A stretch of 64,000 bases of DNA, from positions 186,001 to 250,000 of the forward strand of contig ONHW01000002.1 of the NCBI GenBank assembly GCA_900317745.1. The letters run 5' to 3'. The notes under the pieces were generated by a model. That model was not told the DNA's origin and searched no databases. It saw only the letters and a program-made list of their open reading frames with translations. Below are positions 4,703 through 63,184 of this stretch, piece by piece; within the stretch, counting starts at the first letter, position 1, and each line of letters opens with the position of its first letter. This DNA comes from an uncultured Bacteroidales bacterium. Lineage in GTDB: Bacteria > Bacteroidota > Bacteroidia > Bacteroidales > Paludibacteraceae. A program made the position numbers and the translations under genes.

Positions 4703-4719
4703 TGAATGCATACCAACTG

Positions 4720-4752
4720 TGACTAAACCTCGATAAAACCCCGATAAAGTAT
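4720..4752 (+). repeat. 11-bp periodic repeat, short array
   Basis: Three consecutive 11-mers: tgactaaacct, cgataaaaccc, cgataaagtat. It occupies most of the gap between the two paralogous secreted-protein genes and belongs to the same 11-bp-period family as the arrays near 34043, 39848, 45840 and 61088. Confidence 0.6.
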
Positions 4753-4758
4753 ATACAA

Positions 4759-29758: not shown

Positions 29759-29816
29759 GTAAATCGTAAATCGTAAATCGTAAATCATAAATCGTAAATC
29801 GTAAATCGTAAATGTT
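29759..29816 (+). repeat. Heptamer tandem repeat (aaatcgt) overlapping a start codon
   Basis: Seven copies of aaatcgt (one is aaatcat) from 29761 to 29809 and a degenerate eighth, aaatgtt, which supplies the ATG of the next receptor gene. Copy-number change would alter the distance from upstream signals to the start codon. The same word recurs upstream of smpB (44051-44089). Confidence 0.85.
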
Positions 29817-33770: not shown

Positions 33771-33862
33771 AATAACTTTTAACTTTTAACTTTCAAACTT
33801 CTCTCAACTCTCATCTCTCAACACTCAACACTCAACACTCAACTCTCACATGTCAACTCTCC
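33771..33862. repeat. Long intergenic word repeat (aactttt, ctcaaca)
   Basis: About 90 bp made of aactttt then ctcaaca / ctctcaa words, period 7-8. It lies between the promoter at 33865 and the start of the minus-strand gene at 33713, so it would be transcribed as 5' leader. Confidence 0.8.
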
Positions 33863-34042: not shown

Positions 34043-34086
34043 TTCGATCGGGGTTTTGTCGTACTTTTATTGTACTTTTGTCGAGG
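34043..34086. repeat. 11-bp periodic repeat array
   Basis: Four consecutive 11-mers: ttcgatcgggg, ttttgtcgtac, ttttattgtac, ttttgtcgagg. The last unit ends 20 bp from the Maf stop codon. Same period and CGAT/T-tract composition as the arrays at 39848 and 45840. Confidence 0.7.
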
Positions 34087-38650: not shown

Positions 38651-38710
38651 GGTTTTCTAATATTTTATTGGATTATTTTCTTTTTGCATGTAGCAGCCCA
38701 TTTGGCTGCT

Positions 38711-38776
38711 CTCTTTTTTCTTTGAGAAGCCCGCGGCTGCGGTCTTTTATCTTTGAGCAGGCGCAGCCTGCGGTCT
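38711..38776. repeat. Intergenic repeat with tctttgagc motif, copies 2 and 3
   Basis: cttttttctttgagaagccc, then ctgcggtcttttatctttg, then agcaggcgcagcctgcggtc. It resembles 37400-37451: T-rich run, tctttgag, G/C hairpin, gcggtc. It fills the pta-ackA gap and ends close to the Pta stop. Confidence 0.55.
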
Positions 38777-38779
38777 ATC

Positions 38780-39778
38780 TCATTTCATCGCCTGGTTAGC
38801 CGTGATTACTACCATCTGCACAATATCTTGCACTTTGCATCCGCGGCTCAGGTCGTTCACCGGTGCGGCTATGCCTTGCAGGATCGGACCTACTGCGTCT
38901 GCGCCCGAGAAACGTTCAACCAGTTTGTAACCGATGTTTCCGGCTTGCAGGTCGGGGAACACGAGTACATTGGCGTGACCTGCTACTTTGCTGCCCGGAG
39001 CTTTCTTCTCGCCTACACTCGGGATAAGTGCTGCGTCTGCCTGTAACTCGCCGTCAATCTGCAATTCAGGAGCAAGTTCTTTTGCCATCGCCAAAGCGGA
39101 TGTCACCTTGTCCACATTCTCGTGCTTGGCTGAACCTTTGGTCGAGAACGACAACATAGCCACTCTCGGCTCAATGCCGGCAATCGTGCGAGCGGTCTCG
39201 GCAGTCGAAACGGCTATCTGTGCCAACTCCTCGGCGGTCGGGTTCGGGTTAACGGCGCAGTCGGCGAACAACAGGAATCCGTCCTCGCCCAGGTGCTTGG
39301 CTGGCGTGAACATCAGGAAGGCGCCTGACACGATCTTGCAACCAGGTTTGGTCTTCAATATCTGGAAGGCGGGGCGTATCGTGTCGGCTGTCGTGCCGCG
39401 AGCACCTGCCAACTCGCCGTCGGCATCGCCGGCCTTGATCATCAGGCAACCCAGATACAAGGGATCTTGGGCTTTCTTCTTTGCTTCCTCTTCAGTCATG
39501 CCTTTGGCTTTGCGGAGCTCGTACAGCAAGTTGGCGTAATCTGCCATCTTGGGGTCTGTCGCAGGGTCAAAGATCGTGGCTTTTTCAATGTGTTGGTAAC
39601 CTTTCTCTGCTGCCATCTGACGGATGGTGGCGGGATTGCCGATCAGCGTGAGCTTGGCTAAACCTTGCTCCAGAATGATGTTTGCAGCCTCCAGTGTACG
39701 GGGTTCGTCGCCCTCGGGCAACACAATGCGCTGCGGATTGCTCTTCGCACGCGCATACATAGCGTTCAATATATCCAT
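38780..39778 (-). CDS. pta: Phosphate acetyltransferase
   Basis: 332 aa, the short single-domain PTA form. Signatures include RIVLPEGDEPRTLEAA, the FADCAVNPNPTAEELAQIA segment and MLSFSTKGSA, with ANVLVFPDLQAGNIGYKLV near the C-terminus. It interconverts acetyl-CoA and acetyl phosphate, feeding AckA downstream. A promoter with a CTTG -33 box and TAACTTTG -7 lies about 180 bp upstream. Confidence 0.97.
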   Translation of the reverse strand: MDILNAMYARAKSNPQRIVLPEGDEPRTLEAANIILEQGLAKLTLIGNPATIRQMAAEKGYQHIEKATIFDPATDPKMADYANLLYELRKAKGMTEEEAKKKAQDPLYLGCLMIKAGDADGELAGARGTTADTIRPAFQILKTKPGCKIVSGAFLMFTPAKHLGEDGFLLFADCAVNPNPTAEELAQIAVSTAETARTIAGIEPRVAMLSFSTKGSAKHENVDKVTSALAMAKELAPELQIDGELQADAALIPSVGEKKAPGSKVAGHANVLVFPDLQAGNIGYKLVERFSGADAVGPILQGIAAPVNDLSRGCKVQDIVQMVVITANQAMK

Positions 39779-39847: not shown

Positions 39848-39935
39848 AAATTCGTTCCGTTCGATCGGGCCGTTTTCGATCCATTATCGATCCGTTATCG
39901 GGGCAATATCGGGAGTGATACTTGTCCCGTTTCTG
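39848..39935. repeat. 11-bp periodic repeat array upstream of pta
   Basis: Eight consecutive 11-mers in phase: aattcgttccg, ttcgatcgggc, cgttttcgatc, cattatcgatc, cgttatcgggg, caatatcggga, gtgatacttgt, cccgtttctga. The block shares a 20-nt identity, on the opposite strand, with the array at 45840-45960. It would lie in the 5' leader of pta. Confidence 0.8.
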
Positions 39936-39957: not shown

Positions 39958-39990
39958 ACAAAGTTACACATAAAATTGCAAATTTGCAAG
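39958..39990 (-). promoter_or_regulatory. Promoter of the pta-ackA run
   Basis: Minus strand CTTG (39990-39987), 21-bp spacer, TAACTTTG (39965-39958). It could drive pta, ackA, the GH13 gene, the UbiA-family gene and maf. Confidence 0.6.
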
Positions 39991-43321: not shown

Positions 43322-43326
43322 ACGGC

Positions 43327-43380
43327 TTTTGTCTTTTGTCTATCGACTATTGTCTTTTGTCTTTCGACTTTCGACTATCC
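43327..43380. repeat. Intergenic word repeat (cttttgt, ctatcgact, ctttcgact)
   Basis: About seven 7-9 bp words in 54 bp between the DUF5606 and Nif3 genes, overlapping the DUF5606 stop. The ctttcgact word also occurs inside the DUF2723 gene. Confidence 0.7.
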
Positions 43381-45152: not shown

Positions 45153-45689
45153 TTATCTGATCTTCACCTGGTCGCGTACGATGTAGGTGTAATCCGCCAG
45201 GTCGGGGAAGAGTGCCTTGAACGTGTCGCGGAACTCAGCCGCCTGTTCTACTGTGAGGAAGTCGCCCAGCCGCACTTTCCATGAAGGTGTGGCGTAAATG
45301 ACGTACACCTGCACGCTGATAGTCTGCTTGACGCGTTGCTCAAGTTCCAGAGCACCTGTCTTGCCGCGCGTAGGGTGGTTAGAGGAATAGATCTGCACGC
45401 GGTAACCCGGGTGCTCATGTGTGCCGTGTTCTACGCCGGCGGTTTTTTCCTCCATCAGCATGGTTATCAGGCTGTCCTGCTCCACGTGTGCGTTGTTCAT
45501 ATCCAGCAGGATCTGCGGATAGGTGAGCACCACGGGCGGCAGCGTGTCGTTCACGACGGCTGAATCGGTTATGACGGCTTCTGGCAAGTTCGTTGCCGCG
45601 GGTGTCGGGCTTGTGAGCACCTCTTGCGCGCAAACAGGTAGGGCGCAGAGCCATGCGAGCAGAAATGTGTAGGTTATGTAATGTCTCAT
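45153..45689 (-). CDS. Secreted SPOR-domain protein
   Basis: 178 aa from ATG 45689-45687, which opens a normal signal peptide ([22 protein letters not shown]); an in-frame start at 45719 would add ten residues before it. After a low-complexity linker, residues about 95-175 form a SPOR domain ([14 protein letters not shown]...[10 protein letters not shown]), which binds denuded glycan strands of septal peptidoglycan. A cell-division or envelope role is inferred. Confidence 0.8.
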
Positions 45690-45839
45690 TTTTTCGCTTT
45701 GATAGTTGCTTGCAGACAAGTGCTGCTAACTAACAAATCACAGCAAAAATCGTGCCACGTATTGCGTCGGGCGGTTATGTTTTTGCGCCTTTTGCATAAG
45801 CCCGATCCAAAATCACGGGATATATACATAGTATATATA

Positions 45840-45960
45840 GGTTGCATCGGGATGCGATAAAGGTCCGATAATGGATCGAAAACGGATCGAAAACGGAACA
45901 GAAACGGAACAGAAGCGGAACGGAAATGGAACGGAAACGGTTCAGCGGCGGAAAATAAAC
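45840..45960. repeat. 11-bp periodic repeat array, eleven units
   Basis: Eleven consecutive 11-mers fill 121 bp exactly: ggttgcatcgg, gatgcgataaa, ggtccgataat, ggatcgaaaac (twice), ggaacagaaac, ggaacagaagc, ggaacggaaat, ggaacggaaac, ggttcagcggc, ggaaaataaac. Most units start GG and carry an A-tract at the same phase. The array lies in the 450-bp gap between the divergent SPOR and gpmI genes, upstream of the gpmI promoter. Confidence 0.9.
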
Positions 45961-46007: not shown

Positions 46008-46039
46008 TTTGCAAATGTCAAAATTTTTTTGTAATTTTG
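46008..46039 (+). promoter_or_regulatory. Promoter of gpmI
   Basis: TTTG (46008-46011), 20-bp spacer, TAATTTTG (46032-46039), about 50 bp after the 11-bp array. Confidence 0.7.
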
Positions 46040-46139: not shown

Positions 46140-47669
46140 ATGAGTAAAGCATTACTGATGATTCTTGACGGCTGGGGAATCGGAAAAAAAGATACAGCCG
46201 ATGCTATTGCATGTACATCGACTCCGCATTGGGATAAGTTGCTTGCCACGTATCCGAACTCGCAGTTACAAGCGAGCGGCGAGAACGTAGGTCTGCCTGA
46301 CGGCCAGATGGGCAACTCCGAGGTAGGTCACCTGAATATAGGCGCGGGACGCGTTGTGTATCAGGATCTGGTGAAGATCAATCGTGCATGCAAGGATGGT
46401 TCTATTCTACAGAACCCTGAGATTAAGAGTGCCTTCGGCTACGCAAAAGAGTCGGGCAAGAACCTGCATATCATGGGTCTGACCAGCAATGGTGGTGTGC
46501 ACAGTTCGCTCGACCACCTGTTCTATCTCACCGATATAGCCAAGGAGTACGGATTGCAGGGCAAGACGTTTGTACATTGCTTCATGGACGGCCGTGACAC
46601 CGACCCGCGTTCGGGTATAGGATTCATCGACCAACTTGAGGCGCACATGCAGCAGTCGTGCGGCGAGATAGCCAGTATCTGCGGCCGGTTCTATGCCATG
46701 GATCGTGACAAACGCTGGGAGCGTGTACACGAGGCATACGAGCTGTTGGTGAACGGCAAGGGCGCAGAGTTCGAGTGCATGCACACGGCTATGCAGGCGA
46801 GCTACGATGCCGATGTGACGGACGAGTTCATCAAACCTATCGTGCACGTACGTGACGGCAAGCCGCTGGCAACGATTGGCGAAGGTGACGTAGTGATCTT
46901 CTTCAACTACCGCAACGACCGCGCAAAAGAGATAACTATCTCCCTGACGCAACAGGATATGCCCGAGCAGGGAATGCACACTATTCCAAACCTGCAGTAT
47001 TACTGCATGACACCGTACGACAGTTCGTTCAAGGGGCTGCACATCCTGTTCCCGAAAGAGAACGTGACGAACACGCTGGGCGAGATCGTGTCGAAGGCAG
47101 GTTTGAAACAGTTGCGTATAGCCGAGACGGAGAAGTTTGCACACGTGACCTTCTTCTTCAGCGGCGGTCGCGAGGCGGAGTTCGAGAACGAGGATCGTAT
47201 CCTTATCCCGAGTCCGAAGGTGGCTACCTACGACCTGCAGCCAATGATGTCTGCTCCGGAGGTGACTATCGCTCTGCGTGACGCGCTGAACAGCCAGAAG
47301 TACGACTGCATCATTCTGAACTACGCCAACGGCGACATGGTAGGACATACGGGCGTATATAACTCAATCCAGCAGGCAATAACGGCAATCGACATCTGTG
47401 TGAACGAGACCGTGGAAGCTGCGCTGCGCAATGATTATGAGATCATTATCATCGCCGATCACGGCAACTGCGACCACGCCATCAACGAGGATGGCACGCC
47501 TAACACGGCACACTCGCTGAACCCCGTTCCGTTCGTGTATGTGAGCAACAACCACAAGGATGCGAAGGTGGAGAACGGCATACTGGCTGACGTGGCTCCG
47601 TCGATCTGCCACATACTGGGCATAGAGCAGCCGGCTGAAATGACCGGACACTGCCTGATAAACAACTAA
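46140..47669 (+). CDS. gpmI: 2,3-bisphosphoglycerate-independent phosphoglycerate mutase
   Basis: 509 aa, full length. [12 protein letters not shown] supplies the first metal Asp (D10); [16 protein letters not shown] contains the phosphoserine nucleophile Ser60; the second metal site appears in [11 protein letters not shown] and the phosphatase-like [10 protein letters not shown]. It interconverts 3- and 2-phosphoglycerate in glycolysis using two Mn2+ ions. Transcribed from its own promoter; rsfS follows after 48 bp. Confidence 0.97.
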
Positions 47670-50948: not shown

Positions 50949-51053
50949 TTTCAGTATTCAGTTTTCAGTATTCAGTATTCAGTTTTCTGCTACTTCTCCC
51001 TCCCTTTTAGGGGAGGGCCGGGGTGGGGCGCTCTCAACACTCAACACTCAACT
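50949..51053. repeat. Composite repeat in the cysK-cysE gap
   Basis: Three words in a row: ttcagta/ttcagttt copies (50949-50989), a G/C inverted element CCCTCCC-tttta-GGGGAGGG near 51000-51018, and ctcaaca copies (51031-51050) that reach the cysK stop. The whole 114-bp gap between the two cysteine genes is repeat. Confidence 0.7.
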
Positions 51054-59640: not shown

Positions 59641-59703
59641 GATATAACTTATTCTGTTATATCCTCCATCCTATAAGCCGACCGAATGCAAATATTTATC
59701 CGC

Positions 59704-59785
59704 ATTTTGGTGCAAATTTGCACTAAATTGCGGTTAAATGCAACGTCTATTCGTATTTTGGTGCAAATTTGCACTAAATTGCGGT
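59704..59785. repeat. 31-bp direct repeat containing a 14-bp palindrome
   Basis: Two identical 31-bp copies (59704-59734 and 59755-59785), 51 bp apart, each with the perfect palindrome GTGCAAATTTGCAC followed by taaattgcggt. A protein-binding operator pair is possible. Confidence 0.8.
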
Positions 59786-60059
59786 GTAACTGCATCGGAT
59801 TTCCCTACTAATTTGGTCAGATCATTTTTGCAGATGTCTTTTCGGCGTATGTTAAATCTTATAATACTTCTAATTTTAACCCGAGACGTGTGTGAGAGGA
59901 AGGCAAGAGCAAGGCAAAAGCGAATTGAAAGCAAGTTAACCCGAGACTTATTTGCTTTTTGACTACCATTTTTGGCCGAAAAACACCAACTTTATGCAAG
60001 CATAGTCTGCCGCTATGCTACTAAAAAAACACGTCCGTGCACATTTTTCTTCGGGAAAG

Positions 60060-61009: not shown

Positions 61010-61260
61010 CACTCCGTCCCCTCCGTGACGTTAAAATTGAGGTGTCTCCATTTACTAACCCTGTACGACTAAATTGGGTTACCTTACACAATCGTAGAGA
61101 TAACAGCAGGATAACAGTAGCGTCCGTTTACGTGTCGTTATCGACTCGTTATCGACTCGTTATCGTGTTTGGGTGCTGAATGATGGCTAAAGAGATTTGA
61201 GCTCAGTGAATATTTCAAGCGTTTGAAATTTGTGGTCGGGGAACATTTTTGCAAAAATTA
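61010..61260. other. Gene-free gap after the toxin-antitoxin-like operon
   Basis: No gene seen. It contains the 11-bp periodic array 61088-61175 and then the promoter of the Pmp3-family gene. Confidence 0.5.
61088..61175. repeat. 11-bp periodic repeat array
   Basis: Eight 11-mers in phase: acaatcgtaga, gataacagcag, gataacagtag, cgtccgtttac, gtgtcgttatc, gactcgttatc (twice), gtgtttgggtg. It lies at the junction between the accessory island and the core genes. Confidence 0.8.

Positions 61261-63151: not shown

Positions 63152-63184
<33 letters not shown>

Follow-up and report, generated by a model that had tools for sequence, protein, structure and literature searches.

Intergenic 11-bp-period arrays in a Paludibacteraceae genus as apparent parts of a dispersed composite element linked to an uncharacterised domain family

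What are the short, strictly phased tandem arrays that lie between the genes of an uncultured Bacteroidales bacterium, and is any gene product associated with them? The stretch of DNA that was analysed (the window) comprises 64,000 nucleotides (G000:C20:186001-250000, where G-numbers denote genomes, C-numbers contigs and L-numbers such as L004, L078 or L400 loci) of a genome of 2.6 Mb in 38 contigs. An earlier note on this DNA had described five intergenic arrays with a period of 11 bp and proposed that they form intrinsically curved DNA or a repeated protein-binding surface. Comparison across 61 genomes, 37 of the Paludibacteraceae genus (G000 included) and 24 from other families, indicates that the window arrays are tails and short forms of dispersed composite elements in this genus. 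The repeat system is real and genus-wide. The analysis establishes the element, its spread, its placement bias, its link to a domain family and the co-divergence of array and protein; the array-domain link was unexpected and is recurrent.

All five arrays proved real, 11 being the top lag among lags 5-19 in each of them. Against 2000 dinucleotide shuffles, lag-11 identity reaches 0.68 at 45840-45960 (shuffled 0.30, maximum 0.45), 0.56 at 61088-61175 (0.25), 0.61 at 34043-34086 (0.32; p 0.001), 0.43 at 39848-39935 (0.26; p 0.0005) and 0.60 at 4715-4755 (0.28). The limits first drawn include degenerate ends, and the cores are tighter. The main array, of subfamily B, has its core at 45853-45945 on the plus strand (CGATAAAGGTC CGATAATGGAT CGAAAACGGAT CGAAAACGGAA ... 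CGGAAACGGTT), with degenerate units up to 45960, and follows a palindromic head at 45820-45838 that was read from the sequence without a strand (ATATATAC-ATA-GTATATAT). The second array, of subfamily D, lies at 39864-39913 on the minus strand (CGATATTGCCC CGATAACGGAT CGATAATGGAT CGAAAACGGCC, tail CGATCGAACGGAACG), and the 20-nt identity on opposite strands claimed between these two arrays is exact (CGATAATGGATCGAAAACGG). The remaining cores are found at 34047-34081 (minus strand, between two minus-strand genes; CGACAAAACCC / CAATAAAAGTA, tail CGATCGAACAG), at 61123-61172 (minus strand; CGATAACGAGT CGATAACGAGT CGATAACGACA CGTAAACGGA) and at 4715-4748 (plus strand, in the spacer of two co-directional genes; TGACTAAACCT CGATAAAACCC CGATAAA), and a sixth array, absent from the earlier note, occupies 59891-59932 on the plus strand (GAAGGCAAGAG CAAGGCAAAAG).

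The main array lies between a divergent gene pair, with a SPOR-domain protein gene (a weak match) on the left at 45153-45554 on the minus strand and gpmI, encoding phosphoglycerate mutase and named from the sequence without a family search, on the right at 46140-47669 on the plus strand; a TAnnTTTG promoter-like element of gpmI follows the array at 46032-46039 on the plus strand (consensus match only). The 39864-39913 array probably sits in the 5' leader of the phosphate acetyltransferase gene (PTA_PTB by Pfam; 38780-39778, minus strand), being located between a leftward TAnnTTTG promoter-like element at 39959-39966 on the minus strand (again a consensus match only) and the gene start at 39778. 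The close relative G061, the genome of CALZOG010000043.1 (locus L120), matches the window at 93-96% identity in the four main matches of a 19.9-kb query. There, the 39848 array differs by a single substitution, whereas the 45840 array has about seven units as opposed to 11 in the window, with conserved flanks and an identical head; this one locus shows, therefore, that the array part can change in length by whole units. Upstream of gpmI, G061 (L230/L120) carries about six copies of a tandem unit of about 24 bp (GACCGCTGCGCTGAGAGAAGAGA) between promoter-like site and start, where the window sequence differs.

The periodicity extends well beyond the window. In a 443.6-kb sample of G000 that includes the window, and of which 60 kb (17%) is intergenic, strong lag-11 tandems cover 1101 intergenic bases as opposed to three in shuffled sequence and ten in an equal amount of coding DNA, and 36 of 38 period-11 arrays lie outside called genes. 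A two-unit pattern with up to two mismatches yields 43 matches genome-wide in G000 (eight for the reversed control). A blastn search with the 45840 array returns 24 places in G000, itself included. The earlier note would have given up its proposal if the signal were no stronger than in shuffled DNA or absent elsewhere in the genome; the signal exceeds the shuffles and recurs elsewhere, and so neither holds. In G000, a segment of about 4.6 kb without counterpart between matching G061 flanks (C20:120500-125145) begins within 100 bp of an 11-bp array.

A period of 7 (with 14, 21 and 28) is as strong as a period of 11 in the intergenic DNA of the sample and rare in coding DNA. Arrays of this kind occur in the window at 29759-29813, 33801-33861, 43326-43376, 50950-50987, 63153-63183 and elsewhere, with units such as GTAAATC, CTCTCAA, TTCAGTA and GTTGAGA, and longer tandem duplications with units of 31 bp and 51 bp are located at 38704-38776 and 59697-59794. 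The equal strength of both periods, their near avoidance of coding DNA and the variable unit number between close relatives are what would be expected if polymerase slippage between genes favoured unit lengths of 7 and 11 and produced neutral, functionless long simple sequence repeats, an explanation that has precedents in described heptamer repeats and in a hypothesis of slippage (Mrazek 2007, as related in PMC4679880 and PMC4692102, in the accessible text). We nevertheless consider this explanation improbable for the 11-bp arrays: they belong to an ordered composite, usually with four units, which is kept in 16 genomes at mostly unrelated loci, its palindrome covaries, and it is recurrently associated with one gene family.

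This composite consists, in order, of a palindromic head, a spacer, usually four 11-bp units and a variable 11-bp tail. When aligned by eye in 11-bp register, the CGA-type arrays, the type seen in the window, form subfamilies with fixed starts and ends. A long element was recognized at seven of 24 array places that were compared (L004, L005, L007, L015, L025, L040 and L042) and at one found later, and the full copies in G000 number 11. Its layout is a palindrome AGTATATATAC-NNN-GTATATATAGT, an AT-rich spacer of about 25 bp, units of TTATCNTACGG, TAAGG, then CGATATGGTAT CGAAAACGGAG, and finally a tail that differs between loci, for example (CGGGAATGGAG)n. By eye, the left end is sharp and the right end variable, without an inverted copy of the left end at the right. 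The main window array at 45853-45945, which has a palindromic head of its own, represents a second subfamily, and the array at 39864-39913, with its tail CGATCGAACGGAACG, a third; heads resembling the one at 45820-45838 precede arrays at G000 C26, C20:120355 and C13. In a congener (L141, RUI028), the region upstream of gpmI, which in the window holds the main array, carries by eye a full long element in the opposite orientation.

The long element was modelled from sequence alone on the basis of 13 copies of G000 and G061, and the resulting model (R1) matches 35 of the 37 genus genomes at E<=0.1, with a best E of 1e-9 or lower in 17 of them (G000 included). In other families, matches are restricted to three of 24 genomes at E 0.002 or worse, which is the chance level. 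About six chance matches are expected in 61 genomes at E<=0.1, so that the weak matches, which include those of several congeners and all three from other families, may be due to chance; many of the weaker matches also cover part of the model only. Across species, head and spacer persist together with, as a rule, exactly four direct units (five in L373), while unit sequences and tails vary between genomes (both by eye). The arms of the head pair in 87 or 88 of 88 copies at each of nine inner pairs, a proportion favoured by the fact that heads were located by best pairing; the 88 copies comprise 32 distinct arm pairs, three of 91 copies without a clear palindrome having been excluded. Both T-A and A-T occur at pairs 5 to 9, with G-C as a further variant of pair 9, the bases changing on both sides. 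Such two-sided swaps are indicative of constraint on a symmetric or hairpin structure, or of palindrome-templated correction.

The placement of the element relative to genes was analysed with a hexamer-score gene caller for 91 copies from 16 genomes, mainly the better-scoring among the matches listed. Within this set, the middle of the copy never falls inside a called gene (0/91), and the end of a called gene is overlapped by 11-26 bp in three copies (L236, L237 and L334). In 68 of 90 copies the head is directed at a gene start, a count that becomes 57 of 79 when the fusion-gene loci described below are left out (p 1e-4; among the matches listed). With the head drawn to the left, 35 copies lie between divergent, 44 between tandem and five between convergent genes (n=84 among the matches listed, that is, the 91 copies minus seven without a called gene on one side), and the divergent share of 35/84 compares with 19.6% of available places (p 3e-6; background from the G000 sample alone). 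Selection against insertions at other sites might account for part of this bias. Three further regularities were looked for and set aside. A shared pathway of the flanking genes was not evident by Pfam in 30 proteins (28 flanking copies of the element and two from window genes), the element adjoining many unrelated genes on many contigs; a role as terminator of the tail-side gene is at odds with that gene pointing to the element in just 33 of 85 cases (among the matches listed); and the CGA-type arrays of G000 are oriented to the downstream gene in about half of the cases (10/18, by eye).

Promoter-like sites, here consensus matches to TAnnTTTG taken without start-site data, lie between head and gene in 55 of the 68 copies whose head-side gene points away from the element; the site is 34-54 bp from the head in 21 of these 55, and seven have an additional tail-side site. 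The other 13 divide into 11 with a tail-side site only, near the start codon, which places the element in the 5' leader, one with a far tail-side site only and one without any promoter-like site. Since the 55 copies lie upstream of the promoter-like site and hence outside the transcript of the gene they face, action at the DNA level is favoured over the RNA level. A transcribed array with an AU hairpin and a U-run could in principle serve as an attenuator or a protein-binding leader: in the 11 leaders of the fusion genes, array and hairpin are downstream of the promoter-like site and in most a U-rich stretch comes next, and a same-strand ORF start lies within 155 bp of 13 of 19 arrays of the second class discussed below. 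Nonetheless, the position of the 55 copies, an Rfam search of ten loci without a match to the element (the sole one being a tRNA elsewhere in a locus) and the lack, by eye, of a fold common to the copies except for the head hairpin make RNA-level control very improbable, more so than slippage. As for the curved DNA proposed in the earlier note, phased roll, calculated from roll angles, is raised at both short arrays (p 0.006 and 0.012) but does not exceed shuffles at 39848, 45840 and 61088 (p 0.41, 0.25 and 0.19), and curvature was rejected as the explanation because it is not supported for these three of the five arrays.

The proteins encoded beside the element provided a link to one gene family. 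Clustering of 173 flanking proteins into 145 clusters yielded one ortholog group of 11 members from 11 genomes, the next largest group having four, and these 11 members correspond exactly to the 11 leader copies of the element. The protein has 272-291 amino acids (one is cut short at 224) and combines an N-terminal domain of about 120 amino acids with a C-terminal ElaA-like GNAT domain. Alignment A2 was made without L240, in which the fusion is cut short. A profile search detects the fusion gene in 11 of 61 genomes, full length in ten and cut short in G029; the G000 copy is located at C18:30316-31164, and no domain gene occurs within the 443.6-kb G000 sample including the window. All 11 fusion genes carry the element in their 5' leader, with the head 11-17 bp before the start codon and a promoter-like site on the far side. 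A strong element (best E<=1e-9) is accompanied by the fusion gene in 11 of 17 genomes, as opposed to 0 of 44 of the others (p 3e-8; within the genus p 1.4e-5; both uncorrected for phylogeny). In six genomes with a strong element the fusion gene was not detected at the cut-off (G007, G015, G017, G021, G026 and G030). Several of these are incomplete, but G026 is 100% complete.

The N-terminal domain also occurs alone, with 20 stand-alone matches in congeners by profile search, and a single genome can hold several domain genes. The stand-alone genes are mostly preceded by 11-nt arrays of other sequences, for example ACGATAGATAT, ACGGAGGATAT and TACGTAAGATA, and no long palindromic element was seen there by eye. 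Ten stand-alone genes were tested, namely those of the 20 with a locus, some of the remainder being among nine genes added later. In seven of the ten, the array comes after a promoter-like site; in L411 the site follows the array, which is thus outside the leader, in L410 no promoter-like site was found, and in L405 no array was found. When 21 domain genes (11 fusion, ten stand-alone) were examined, the upstream regions of 20 beat all 200 shuffles at lag 11, although lag 10 outscores lag 11 in L270 and lag 7 ties with it in L400; the lowest score of these 20 genes, 24/33, is reached by eight of 304 upstream regions of G000, the only control genome. Eight of the nine further genes, found beside arrays or in the sister genome, also beat 200 shuffles, including L277 of G061 with ACCGAAGGATA units and L361 of G031 with GAGTGGTAAAA units. 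In all, this holds for 28 of 30 tested domain genes, the exceptions being L405 and a second gene at L078. The L078 gene of G002 that has an array carries upstream units of CGAAAACGGAC type like those of the window arrays; the CGA-type tails, to which the window arrays belong, are tied to the domain system solely through the element tails and this one gene. Beside it, the ORF at 2243 on the minus strand encodes a distantly related protein of the domain family (FRTNKQTG..) and has no upstream array.

Array and protein diverge together. Across 28 genes, array distance and domain distance are correlated with a Mantel r of 0.70, exceeded in 0 of 5000 permutations; L405 and the second L078 gene were left out, and for L295 and L273 the array stretch compared was the body near the head. 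Joint inheritance of a gene together with its leader could also give such co-divergence, but different arrays precede the domain genes of one genome in both G031 and G034, and the four genes of G031 have four array types.

What the domain binds was not indicated by any match in Pfam, NCBIfam, PHROG or PDB; no PDB fold match was obtained at E<=0.001, and the predicted model of the domain is of moderate quality (pLDDT 81, pTM 0.58). Above the Pfam cut-off, the fused GNAT is the only domain recognized, with no transposase-like domain. A phage origin of the domain was also considered and rejected, as none of 25 viral-contig stretches matching its peptide pattern encodes a relative and no phage record matches.

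The main rival to a regulatory reading is an origin as a MITE-like or REP-like mobile element, in which the palindromic head would be one end, a domain gene with its array the helper or autonomous copy, and the arrays would have grown later by slippage. Features in keeping with mobility are the large number of scattered copies, which end sharply on the left and have unrelated flanks, the unit versions that differ per genome, the several domain genes per genome and the existence of BrickBuilt, a MITE with a minisatellite in the same bacterial order (PMC4596501, in its accessible portion). Among eight strong G061 copies, one (C32) has no flank match among the G000 copies, which leaves scope for movement, and G000 C36 matches G061 C32 in the element only; on the other hand, seven of the eight share long flanks with a G000 copy, so that most copies are old. 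Neither a clean empty site nor a target duplication was found in these comparisons; a copy absent from G061 leaves about 8 bp matching the left end of the element, which is more like a loss, and the site of a second G000 copy falls at a contig end in G061. Together with the orientation and promoter-distance bias and with a protein that has no transposase-like domain, these observations make a mobile origin somewhat doubtful, though clearly less so than slippage or RNA-level control.

A second class of arrays was detected with the pattern ACGDWNSATAY x2 (up to one mismatch), built solely from the upstream regions of stand-alone genes. Such ACG-type arrays give 201 matches in G032, 77 in G011, 39 in G010 and 14-29 in each of G005, G008, G009, G015, G019 and G020, with 0-2 in reversed controls, as opposed to four matches in the 24 other-family genomes together (five in controls). 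In G032, which is 97% complete, and likewise in G015 and G008, no domain gene is detected at E<=1e-10 with a fusion-type profile that may miss divergent genes. Among 20 ACG-type arrays examined from four genomes, one (L443) is followed by a domain gene; for 13 of the other 19, a same-strand ORF, a putative gene, starts within 155 bp (8/9 in G008, 3/3 in G019, 2/7 in G015). The arrays often occupy short spacers directly after the upstream gene, and arrays without an adjoining domain gene would be expected of operators or of non-autonomous copies. In G008, a near-palindrome of the form AACC-N6-GGTT or close to it precedes the ACG-type array just after the upstream stop codon (L432, L436, L437 and L438; by eye), and differs from the TA-rich head of the long element. 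Several contig ends of G032 (L080-L085, L091, L092 and L095) are a few hundred bases or less from an array, many of them beside a repeated intergenic sequence of about 280 bp with 7-bp repeats and a promoter-like site, and probably represent assembly breaks at repeats.

The evidence suggests that the repeats are docking sites for the uncharacterised domain protein. In the reading that we prefer, and to which we give about an even chance, an array consists of head-to-tail binding sites for the domain family of about 120 amino acids, which would be autoregulated; binding, autoregulation and regulatory effect are all matters that we infer. The dispersed family with a repeated protein-binding surface of the earlier note fits the evidence and has gained a candidate protein, even if the binding itself is deduced. 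Units of 11 bp correspond to one helical turn, and every unit would therefore present itself on nearly one face of the helix, where a small, genus-specific nucleic-acid-binding protein could bind cooperatively with one protomer per unit. The element would then be a series of head-to-tail units anchored on a palindromic head, and the putative binder the domain, alone or fused to the ElaA-like GNAT, which is a candidate because its genes carry a matching array. A cooperative protein assembling head to tail would account for the fixed phase, the tolerated decay of units and the variable length of the arrays. Copies upstream of promoters would activate or insulate, and repression would be expected of a copy lying between promoter and start codon, as is usual in autoregulation. 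The domain genes would accordingly be controlled through the matching array just upstream of them, with the other copies acting mostly near the promoters of unrelated genes.

A broader version, which we hold more tentatively than the binding proposal itself and yet find more credible than a mobile origin, would have a new DNA-binding family without a recognizable fold read the 11-bp arrays. Coexisting paralogs would differ in specificity and each would control its own gene via the upstream array, while matching arrays scattered beside housekeeping promoters would constitute a fast-evolving, genus-specific system of global regulation or chromosome organization. If true, this would provide a directly testable array-protein pair for intergenic repeats that are usually labelled 'function unknown', a set of protein and array variants that have diverged together in nature and from which a recognition code might be read, and a gut genus with an expanding regulatory repeat system invisible to ordinary gene annotation. 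Should the element instead be mobile, it would be a repeat family whose partner gene resembles no known transposase.

The statement that no described family fits these arrays stands at the sequence level, as checked against Rfam, Pfam, NCBIfam, PHROG, PDB and the literature, although BrickBuilt MITEs, long simple sequence repeats and the operators of PhoP and BldC are close in kind. A literature search by titles and the beginnings of abstracts, with most subscription journals outside its coverage, returned no such element or 11-bp array family in Paludibacteraceae. REP elements are palindromic, dispersed and intergenic, and have a cognate RAYT transposase of the Y1 (HUH) type. The element described here is likewise palindromic, dispersed and intergenic with a possible partner gene; however, the partner protein has no transposase match, in a comparison that covers the linked domain protein, and the element has a phased 11-bp body. 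PhoP is a winged-helix response regulator of the OmpR family, to which the array-linked domain family does not belong. In Streptomyces, PhoP cooperatively binds PHO boxes of 11-nt units, occupying core units first and degenerate neighbours later (PMC7866108, accessible text). According to the accessible parts of two reports, PHO boxes share with the present arrays head-to-tail 11-nt direct repeats, a core with less conserved ancillary units and a position near promoters, but are built on a GTTCACC motif and serve the phosphate regulon, whereas the units here are, by eye, CGATAACGGAT, TATCCTATGGT and ACGATAGATAT (PMC7866108, PMC9019756). BldC, as far as its accessible description goes, is a small protein that binds head-to-tail on variable numbers of direct repeats, as the candidate domain would; the system differs in its MerR-like wHTH protein and its 9-bp unit AATTXXXX(C), as opposed to 11 bp (PMC5859096).

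Long simple sequence repeats are similar in being intergenic tandem units of 5-11 nt with variable copy number, but one exact unit makes up each family, for example the heptamer TAACTGA, unlike here, and neither a composite element nor a partner gene family, both present here, is mentioned in the accessible text of the sources (PMC4679880, PMC4692102). BrickBuilt of Porphyromonas gingivalis has, in the accessible portion of its description, 23-nt units in variable copy number, terminal inverted repeats, a leader and a tail (PMC4596501). Its unit is thus 23 nt instead of 11 bp, and that portion does not mention a phased palindromic head, a four-unit body or a partner protein, whereas the element here has the first two and a candidate for the third; what the two have in common, within the same bacterial order, is that both are dispersed and intergenic and consist of imperfect tandem units with a leader and a tail (PMC4596501).
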